From: Kutzneria buriramensis
Lineage (GTDB): Bacteria; Actinomycetota; Actinomycetes; Mycobacteriales; Pseudonocardiaceae
Assembly: GCF_003387475.1 (NCBI RefSeq)
Contig: NZ_QUNO01000025.1
Coordinates: forward strand, 1-64,000
Direction: 5' to 3'
Length of the DNA: 64,000 bases
Below, one piece after another: positions 178-60,289 of this stretch (the first letter of the stretch is position 1; each line of letters starts with the position of its first letter). The translations under genes and the position numbers were made by a program. The notes below the pieces were generated by a model that searched no databases, was not told the origin of the DNA, and was given only the letters and a program-made list of their open reading frames with translations.

Positions 178-190
178 TAGATCTACAGTG

Positions 191-339
191 TTTTGCCGCG
201 CGTTCCGCGCGGGGCGAGGTCGCTCGTGACCGGTCTCTTCCCTTGTCTCAGCTCGATCGATGACCAGTGTCTGATTTGCGCGTTCCGCGCGGGCATCGAT
301 CGAGCTGAGCCTGCGGTCCAGAGACCGGCGCGACCTCGC
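191..339 (+). repeat. Intergenic hairpin element, family 1, copy A
   Basis: Structured 149-bp element between two convergent genes. Order of parts: a block at 191-212 holding the mini-hairpin CGCGCG-TTC-CGCGCG; a TTCCC(T)TGTCTC block at 238-249; a perfect 16-bp stem (247-262 with 294-309); GAGCCTGCGGTCC at 307-319; CGGCGCGACCTCGC at 326-339. Two further stems nest outside: 230-237 with 321-328, and 214-222 with 331-339. The loop repeats the GCGCGTTCCGCGCGGG motif at 278-293. The same blocks recur inverted at 53120-53264 and in part at 13784-13824. It probably acts as a bidirectional terminator as well, but the dispersed conserved blocks suggest a mobile or functional element. Confidence 0.8.
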
Positions 340-52981: not shown

Positions 52982-53282
52982 TCGACAATCCCCCTTCGAG
53001 TTTCACCTCGACCATACGTAGGACCCCTGACAAGGACGACCGAATTTCCGGGCCTGACGGGCAGCCTGCGAGTTCCAGCGCGGTGGAGGTCAAGGCGATG
53101 TGACGCGGCTTTCGGCCGGGCGAGGCCGCGCCGATGGCAGGACCGCAGGCTCGTTCGCATGCCGCGGGTGACGAACCCCCGCCCGAGTCTCGCGGCATGC
53201 GAACGAGACAGGGGAAGGCATTGGCTTGAAGGCGGCCGAGCTCCGCGCGGAACGCGCGGCAAAAGCAGAGCATGATGGGGCC
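52982..53282. other. Divergent intergenic region carrying the hairpin element
   Basis: The 301-bp gap between the ABC exporter (minus) and a small gene (plus). Nearly half is the family 1 element at 53120-53264, whose conserved edge lies 18 bp before the small gene. The remaining ~140 bp next to the ABC gene should hold its promoter; I see no clear dyad there. Confidence 0.6.
53120..53264 (-). repeat. Intergenic hairpin element, family 1, copy B
   Basis: On the minus strand: a 22-bp block at 53264-53243 identical to 191-212; TTCCCCTGTCTC at 53216-53205 (11 of 12 matching copy A); a perfect 17-bp stem (53150-53166 with 53191-53207) unrelated in sequence to that of copy A; GAGCCTGCGGTCC at 53152-53140, identical to copy A; six bases; then CGGCGCGGCCTCGC at 53133-53120 (13 of 14). 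Here the element sits between divergent genes, so it cannot simply be a terminator. Confidence 0.8.
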
Positions 53283-58589: not shown

Positions 58590-60289
58590 CGAGCATCGAC
58601 CGGCGCCGGTACGCGGAGCTGTTCGGCCCGACCACCGGCGACCGGATCCGGCTGGCCGACACGAACCTGCTGGTCGAGGTCACCGAGGACCGCAGCCGGG
58701 GCGCGGGTTCCGGCGACGAGGTGGTGTTCGGCGGCGGCAAGGTGATCCGCGAGTCGATGGGCCAGGGCATGGCGACCCGGGCCGACGGCGCGCCGGACGT
58801 GGTGATCACCGGCGCCGTGATCCTCGACCACTGGGGCGTGGTCAAGGCCGACGTGGGCATTCGCGACGGCCGGATCGTCGGCATCGGCAAGGCCGGCAAT
58901 CCGGACACCATGGACGGCGTGGACCCGGCGCTGGTGATCGGCCCGTCCACGGAGATCGTGGCCGGCAACGGGAAGATCCTCACCGCCGGCGGCATCGACT
59001 GCCACGTGCACTTCATCTGCCCGCAGCTGGTGGACCAGGCGCTGGCGGCCGGCCTGACCACGCTGATCGGCGGCGGCACCGGGCCGGCGGAGGGCACGAA
59101 GGCGACCACAGTGACACCGGGATCCTGGAACCTGGCGCGGATGCTGGCGTCGATGGACTACCAGCCGGTGAACGTCCTGTTGCTGGGCAAGGGAAACACC
59201 GTCAGCGAGGAGGGGCTCTGGGAGCAGCTTCGCGGCGGCGCGGGCGGGTTCAAGCTGCACGAGGACTGGGGCACCACGCCGGCGGTGATCGACGCGGCGC
59301 TGCGGGTGGCGGACGCTTCGGGCGTTCAGGTGGCGATCCACACCGACACGTTGAACGAGGCCGGCTTCGTCGAGTCCACAGTGGACGCCATCGGCGGCCG
59401 GTCGATCAACGCCTACCACACCGAGGGCGCCGGCGGCGGGCACGCGCCGGACATCATCAAGGTGGTCGGCGAGCCGAACGTGCTGCCCTCGTCGACGAAC
59501 CCGACGCGGCCGCACACCGTGAACACCCTCGACGAGCACCTGGACATGCTGGTGGTCTGCCACCACCTGAACCCGTCGGTGCCGGAGGACCTGGCGTTCG
59601 CGGAGAGCCGGATCCGACCGACCACCATCGCCGCCGAGGACCTGCTGCACGACATCGGCGCCATCTCGATGATCAGCTCCGACTCGCAGGCGATGGGCCG
59701 GATCGGCGAGGTGATCATCCGCACCTGGCAGACGGCGCACGTGATGAAGGAGCGCCGGGGTGTGTTGGGCGACAACGAGAGGGCGCAGCGGTACGTCGCC
59801 AAGTACACGATCAACCCGGCCATCGCGCACGGCATCGACCACGAGGTCGGGTCGGTGGAGGTCGGCAAGCTCGCGGATCTCGTGCTGTGGGAGCCGAAGT
59901 TCTTCGGCGTGCGGCCGCACATGGTGCTGAAGGGCGGCTTCGCGGCGTGGGCGGCGATGGGCGACGCGAACGCGTCCATCCCGACGCCGCAGCCGGTGCT
60001 GGCGCGGCCGATGTTCGGCGCGGCGCCACGGGTTGCGGCGGCGAGCAGCGTGCATTTCGTCTCGCAGGCGGCGATCGACGACGGCCTGGCGGAGAAGTTG
60101 GGGCTCTCAAGGCCCCTGCTGTCGGTCGCCGACACTCGTCGGCGCGGCAAGGCGGACATGGTTCTGAACGACACGCTGCCGCGGGTGACCGTCGACCCGG
60201 ACAGCTTCGCCGTGCACGTGGACGGCGAGCTCGTCGAGCCGCATCCGGTGACGGAACTGCCCATGTCCCAACGCTATTTCCTGTTCTGA
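58586..60289 (+). CDS. ureC: Urease alpha subunit (catalytic)
   Basis: 567 residues from the GTG overlapping the ureB stop; this matches the usual UreC start ([20 protein letters not shown]). Active-site motifs: HVHFICP (first Ni His pair), [10 protein letters not shown] with the Lys to be carbamylated, [10 protein letters not shown], and [12 protein letters not shown], which supply further Ni His residues, and [16 protein letters not shown] with the last Asp. The mobile flap lies at [21 protein letters not shown] with its His. Complete with no sign of decay. Confidence 0.97.

Follow-up and report, generated by a model that had tools for sequence, protein, structure and literature searches.

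The window, i.e. the whole stretch of 64,000 nucleotides that was analysed, is part of the 12-Mb, 65-contig genome of Kutzneria buriramensis and carries two copies of a palindromic element. Copy 1 (184..339, + strand; approximate left boundary) lies between convergent genes and copy 2 (53120..53264, − strand) between divergent genes, the latter arrangement as described in a first-pass annotation of this DNA. When the sequence was read again, both copies and the four blocks that they share were found at the coordinates given in that annotation. Within the window, exactly two occurrences of the 22-bp block were counted, where 0.02 are expected with up to three mismatches; the block is itself a hairpin, HP1, and the outer stems P2 and P3 also pair. 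From 5' to 3', copy 1 consists of a tail beginning at about 184, HP1 (196..212, CCGCGCG-TTC-CGCGCGG), the 5' arm of P2 (214..223, partner 330-339), the 5' arm of P3 (230..238, partner 320-328), the 5' side of a conserved internal loop (TCCCTTG, 239..245), the 5' arm of the sequence-variable stem P4 (247..262), an apical loop (263..293), the 3' arm of P4 (294..309), the 3' side of the internal loop (CCTGCGGTCC, 310..319) and the 3' arms of P3 and P2 (320..339). HP1, P2 and P3 are defined by fold and covariation, the internal loop by column conservation (its 5' side has invariant or nearly invariant columns) and the 3' arm of P4 by sequence and fold. HP1 is further marked by 85 near-exact matches (at most one mismatch) in the genome, against one for the reversed control. 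Copy 2 has its HP1 at 53243..53260 (− strand), identified by sequence and by the HP1 search, and its P4 arms, placed by sequence and fold, at 53191..53207 (5') and 53150..53166 (3'), both on the − strand. The perfect stems noticed previously are present as described, with 16 bp in copy 1 (247-262/294-309) and 17 bp in copy 2 (53191-53207/53150-53166). Compared with shuffled sequences, copy 1 folds far better (z −6.6) and copy 2 moderately better (z −2.5). The apical loop of copy 1 (263-293) contains an extra HP1-like hairpin; a similar one is found in L163, a copy from another species, which suggests a subfamily.

The element is not confined to the window. The pattern TTCCCTTGN{24,54}GCGGTCC has 44 matches in the genome and its reversed form none; 42 of the 44 were judged real from their hairpins. 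The exact 13-base block is found at eight places, six of which are elements, including both window copies, and two of which (L001 and L002) are not. A union of the HP1 matches and the cores without such an HP1 nearby amounts to 103 matches in the genome, a figure that counts as two a pair of HP1 matches 48 bp apart and that includes truncated copies and other core types. A looser core pattern was applied to the genome itself (G000) and to six relatives (G001 to G006); it gave 44, 17, 15, 0, 23, 7 and 9 matches, respectively, against a single match of the reversed control across all seven. Hairpin inspection retained 42, 15, 13, 0, 22, 3 and 7 of these, 13 of the 115 being dropped. The small "same genus" genome G003 has no family member according to either the core pattern or the covariance model. 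At E ≤ 0.001, a covariance-model search found matches in 39 of 297 genomes of the taxonomic family, which represent 7 of 46 genera (Kutzneria among them), and in 7 of 394 genomes of the class, namely the source genome and six from one other taxonomic family (f31); these genome counts are lower bounds, as few candidates were scored per genome. Altogether, members were found in five other Kutzneria, six other genera of the same taxonomic family and one other family. This search of relatives, which the first-pass annotation had proposed, thus returned many copies that have the same shell and differing paired cores, and both outcomes that would have spoken against the element, i.e. no further copies or unpaired cores, were looked for and not encountered. 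Among genome contigs, the strict pattern is present in six stretches, five from Kutzneria sp. 744 and one (L061) from the metagenome contig JAUIBG010000173.1, labelled Actinomycetes bacterium. No strict-pattern match was found in viral contigs and no match to the element in plasmid and phage collections. The open-access literature searched yielded no report of such an element in these bacteria, and the part of the Kutzneria albida genome paper available here (PMC4210621) does not mention such a repeat.

Most of the comparisons below use a set of 102 copies (46 from G000, 15 from G001, 13 from G002, 17 from G004, 3 from G005 and 8 from G006), extracted by a scripted pattern from 100 retrieved stretches and the window; five G004 copies are outside this set, as are L121 and L164, which failed the pattern. 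All have the same general layout: a weakly conserved tail, HP1, P2, an unpaired strand, P3, an internal loop (CTTCCCTTG opposite CNGCGGTCCAG) and a long P4. The apical loop fits TGRANNGAN in 98 of the 102 copies, and the first seven bases of P4 occur in 55 forms. At the outermost position of P4, 43 of 98 distinct rows lack a pair, the mismatch being mostly T·C (44/102 copies). A conserved shell made of tail, HP1, P2, P3 and internal loop surrounds cores of several types, classed by eye: type A, to which copy 1 belongs, type B (L234, L242 and L245) and type C (L244, L251 and copy 2). The centres of the two window copies had been called unrelated; their sequences do differ, and part of the apparent unrelatedness comes from the two cores appearing, by eye, to be of different types. 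The f31 core has the sequence CTTCCCTCG ... CTCAGTCCAG or CTCGGTCCAG.

This family is mobile, as the first-pass annotation had suggested among other possibilities: it has many copies, empty sites, nested and truncated copies, and in-frame insertions. The site of copy 1 is devoid of the element in all five relatives compared (G001, G002, G004, G005 and G006), and that of copy 2 in the four relatives where it was recovered by sequence (G001, G002, G005 and G006); in G004, the flank matches of the copy 2 site are 31 bp apart, too close to accommodate the element. L118 is inserted in a D-serine deaminase-like gene, where it adds a net 123 bp (41 codons) in frame relative to five relatives; the site is empty in these five by sequence, and in four of them also by coordinates, and the additional segment is an insert relative to PDB 3gwq. 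L164 lies inside the KS-AT linker of a polyketide synthase, as judged by comparison with solved structures. These two are the only gene-internal copies found (L118 within the 102-copy set, L164 outside it), and the empty site is established for L118. At the L118 junction, the only clean one, no duplication of the target site was recognised, and although P2 forms an inverted repeat, HP1 and the tail are outside it. L141 and L128 lie at one common intergenic site, each oriented opposite to the other. Of the relatives compared at the L085 site, G001 and G006 have divergent members and three have other hairpins. Fifteen G000 copies have common longer ends, which looks like a recent burst. Several composite arrangements were also noticed. 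In G004, L167 contains three copies in direct tandem with a 136-bp spacing, two of them with identical P4, and several copies repeat their own 3' end (L170, L174, L178 and L179). L238, L243 and L248 each combine two 5' shells with one 3' end, as if a copy had entered or partly replaced another.

No protein recurs within about 1.3 to 1.5 kb of the copies, and no transposase or partner candidate was found there; the largest clusters of neighbours, ABC-transporter ATPases (9 loci) and regulators (6 loci, some sampled twice), are taken as common gene families. The same survey of neighbours, in which no protein family recurs, is the one that bears on a retron or group II intron RNA, a kind of element that would be expected to go with a reverse transcriptase. 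An asymmetric 5' hairpin joined to a palindromic body would suit a REP/BIME or IS200/IS605-like element moved by a Y1 (HUH) transposase. This origin is extremely improbable, since G000, G001 and G003 to G006 lack any Y1_Tnp match and G002 has a single 34-residue fragment; furthermore, Y1_Tnp matches occur in 8 of 39 element-positive genomes and in 53 of 258 others, if both 297-genome samples are taken as the same. REP/BIME sequences associated with RAYT are intergenic palindromes too. Unlike in these systems, the Kutzneria genome has no Y1 transposase match, and a REP/RAYT ancestry was rejected for want of a resident enzyme in the Y1_Tnp search.

The copies favour the 3' ends of genes. In the 102-copy set, 30 are located between convergent genes, 48 between tandem genes and 15 between divergent genes, 8 overlap a gene call and 1 is undetermined; these are raw counts, and they depend on uncurated gene calls from a codon-usage caller that was trained on the window. 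For copies between tandem genes, the upstream gene ends at a median of 18.5 nt from the copy and the next one starts at a median of 66 nt, and 37 of the 48 copies are nearer to the upstream 3' end (Wilcoxon p 6e-5). Twenty-nine of the 48 have the upstream stop no more than 25 nt away (15.6 on average under the null, with a maximum of 27 in 5000), and 53 of all 102 copies are within 25 nt of some gene end. At L086, L094, L096, L097, L102 and L123, a gene called on the opposite strand extends at its 3' end into the element, by which the C-terminus of its protein would be encoded.

Such positions raise the possibility, somewhat unlikely in our judgement but the most serious of the alternatives, that the element would be a portable two-way transcription terminator, which would have spread because hairpins are useful between convergent genes. 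The bias towards gene 3' ends agrees with it, as does the raw count of convergent and divergent arrangements (30 vs 15 among the 93 copies with two called neighbours and no overlap). Moreover, relatives that lack a family member at the copy 1 and L085 sites have other hairpins there, of 9 to 24 pairs. In Streptomyces clavuligerus, 353 of 535 structured transcript ends are U-poor and bidirectional ends are found as well, according to the available portion of PMC8269248; by analogy, a two-way role at transcript ends is plausible for the Kutzneria hairpins, but copy 2 does not fit. Indeed, 15 copies including copy 2 lie between divergent genes, and the empty sites of copy 2 show only 6 to 7 pairs, although the shortest of the other hairpins, with 9 pairs, come close to this. 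No terminator was called at either window copy, and this reading leaves the conserved internal loop and HP1 unexplained. A canonical intrinsic (U-tract) terminator is not supported, no T-run terminator having been called at the two window copies. Two other kinds of palindromes were seen at these sites. A second family, AGGGGCCC...GGGCCCCT, occupies the same convergent gene ends at the L085 site, sometimes beside a family member (L201 in G005, L202 in G006, L203 in G001 and a variant in L205 of G002), with arms of 20 pairs in G005 and 24 in G002. A third type, TG(G/T)CACATGCGGTCCGGA..., is found at the gene end orthologous to that of the copy 1 site in G002 and G005 (L215 and L217).

Pairing is maintained across the family with massive covariation. 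An alignment of 99 copies over 42 pairs, from which the three long-core copies (both window copies and L163) were left out, has standard pairs in 96.1% of cells, whereas slid controls pair at 30-42%. It contains 706 double-sided changes, against 193 in shuffled data, and double changes occur in 32 of the 42 pairs. When the outermost P4 position is set aside, the cells comprise 3860 Watson-Crick pairs, 24 G·T, 18 A·C and 100 others; G·T and A·C number 11 and 3 in HP1, 3 and 4 in P2, 5 and 7 in P3, and 5 and 4 in P4, respectively.

These data bear on whether the element could be a structured non-coding RNA, or an element of mRNA 3' untranslated regions, in which selection on the RNA fold would keep the stems and the loops would bind a protein. 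Covariation resembles that of textbook RNAs, copies are located at gene 3' ends, the core CTTCCCT...GTCCAG is kept in another taxonomic family, and change is scarcer in the loops (14/276 positions) than in basal P4 (26/96 pairs). Selection acting on one strand as RNA should clearly favour G·T. Only HP1 leans in this direction; outside HP1, G·T is no commoner than A·C (13 vs 15), and it makes up 0.6% of all cells, which lends RNA selection no specific support. Basal P4 has almost no one-sided changes (1 vs 25), some copies are inside genes, and copies have either orientation relative to the neighbouring gene. Searches of Rfam at gathering and relaxed thresholds gave only weak matches of the element, below the gathering score. 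An RNA function of this kind is therefore rated as distinctly unlikely. Of the earlier suggestion of a structured RNA or DNA under selection for pairing, the pairing itself stands, while RNA selection finds no support in the overall count of 24 G·T to 18 A·C or in any Rfam relative. Elsewhere in the window, positions 58750-59038 (− strand) match Rfam 5_ureB_sRNA with 57.9 bits (gathering score 40), possibly through coding-sequence similarity; an actinomycete is presumably far from the known host of that family.

Comparison of copies at shared sites indicates how P4 changes. In 12 ortholog comparisons, a small and non-independent set in which L134 and L155 are used twice and L091/L139 may be separate insertions, 25 double changes and 1 single change were counted in 96 pairs of basal P4 (21 and 1 of 88 without L091/L139). 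Four-fold sites in the flanks, labelled by the same gene caller, differ by 0.243 (1048/4305), and the rate of pair changes in basal P4 is approximately that of these sites. According to our calculation, arms that change independently at 0.24 per site would yield far more single changes than matched double ones, the opposite of what is seen in basal P4, whereas copying of one arm onto the other leads to a pair rate close to the single-site rate, as observed there. This basal half stays Watson-Crick while its sequence changes at fixed sites. Changes are few in the other stems (4/83 pairs in HP1, 4/120 in P2, 7/108 in P3 and 1/84 in distal P4) and mostly one-sided (12 of 16, the other 4 being double), and coupling is thus shown only for basal P4. 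The internal and apical loops changed at 14 of 276 positions.

The first-pass annotation had considered that the palindromic core is replaced. This holds in part: most shared sites change by one to a few coupled pairs and not as a block. Gene conversion or recombination between copies, which would swap whole cores and bring in matched arms by block replacement, could account for L091/L139, which differ in shell and core at one site, for the unusual mismatch that L147 (G001) and L160 (G006) have in common at different sites, and for the two 5' ends and single 3' end of L238, L243 and L248. Nevertheless, the double-changed pairs per ortholog comparison (1, 0, 1, 3, 4, 5, 0, 3, 2, 3, 1 and 2) look like independent single-pair events and the shells are otherwise mostly retained; exchange of whole cores is considered quite unlikely as the general cause, slightly more so than selection on an RNA. 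Copying between arms has its own difficulties. It should also mend the other stems, which mostly change one-sidedly; HP1 leans to G·T (11 vs 3 A·C); and selection in very large populations could fix compensatory pairs without visible intermediates. In two of the 25 double changes, one of the states is mismatched. Transitions account for 8 of the 25, where the four-fold spectrum predicts 15% or 6%; the spectrum of the non-coding flanks (214 transitions, 351 transversions) fits either one coupled event or two. In L105, P2 is 20 bp long (the next best of the 102 copies has 11); its additional 9 nt mirror the HP1 arm of L105 itself, down to a base absent from the other HP1 matches of the 85-match set. 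This one case is suggestive of a template-switch footprint. Loop inversion, the mark of one kind of template switch, was found in none of the 102 copies for the two loop forms looked for.

These observations, drawn from comparison of DNA sequences, are probably best explained, with moderate confidence, by a family of non-autonomous mobile palindromic DNA elements of about 120-150 bp, similar to MITEs or Rickettsia palindromic elements (RPEs), whose variable stem would be kept matched at the DNA level, probably by template switching. The following scheme may be proposed. The folded single strand would be the form recognised by the mobilising enzyme, which may account for the conservation of the loops, the tail and distal P4. 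In the free part of P4, a mutation of one arm would be copied to the other arm by template switching or snap-back synthesis during replication, to which some selection for pairing would perhaps add. At gene 3' ends, copies could act as two-way transcript-end hairpins and hence be tolerated or kept. A stricter version, in which a single event rewrites both variable arms at a roughly neutral rate, covariation arises without any RNA selection and the folded strand is the substrate of an undescribed enzyme reading the internal loop and the 5' hairpin, is put forward tentatively; its probability is rather low, between those of the terminator and of the RNA.

With respect to known systems, the mobile DNA family, marked by coupled evolution of its variable-stem arms, would be related in kind to MITEs and RPEs rather than a demonstrated member of either. 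The consulted part of PMC10969869 describes RPEs as palindromic, dispersed sequences of about 150 bp able to insert in frame in protein genes. The Kutzneria element is comparable in size, palindromic nature, dispersal and in-frame gene insertion, the latter for a small minority of copies (L118 and L164). It differs from RPEs, in a comparison by description, in being mostly intergenic, in its occurrence in high-G+C actinobacteria and in its conserved internal loop and HP1. According to the same portion of that source, bacterial MITEs and related repeats (QMITE2, ERIC, BOX and RUP) are short, non-autonomous, dispersed and strongly folding, and can be nested; the Kutzneria family shares these traits and has empty sites. 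In contrast to MITEs, no terminal repeats with target duplications were recognised, no parent transposase was found near the copies, and the 5' hairpin is asymmetric. The hairpins also resemble, in being stable and U-poor, the U-poor or bidirectional transcript ends of GC-rich bacteria described in the accessible text of PMC8269248; these ends are a functional class, whereas the Kutzneria element is one homologous family. Finally, template switching, in which one arm serves as the template of the other, is reported to yield perfectly paired stems and double changes that arise instantaneously (PMC8794818). Those cases concern RNA genes and 61% of their instantaneous changes are of the transition type, unlike the 8 of 25 found here.

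This family appears well suited, as a natural system, to the study of DNA palindromes, both of their movement and of how their symmetry is preserved; it also points to an undescribed mobilisation system that prefers gene 3' ends. It is common to regard covariation as proving that an RNA is functional; in this family, some hundred dispersed copies covary with little preference for wobble pairs. If copying from arm to arm is the cause, the family would offer a natural experiment on bacterial template switching, and it would also serve as a warning to those who screen for new RNAs.
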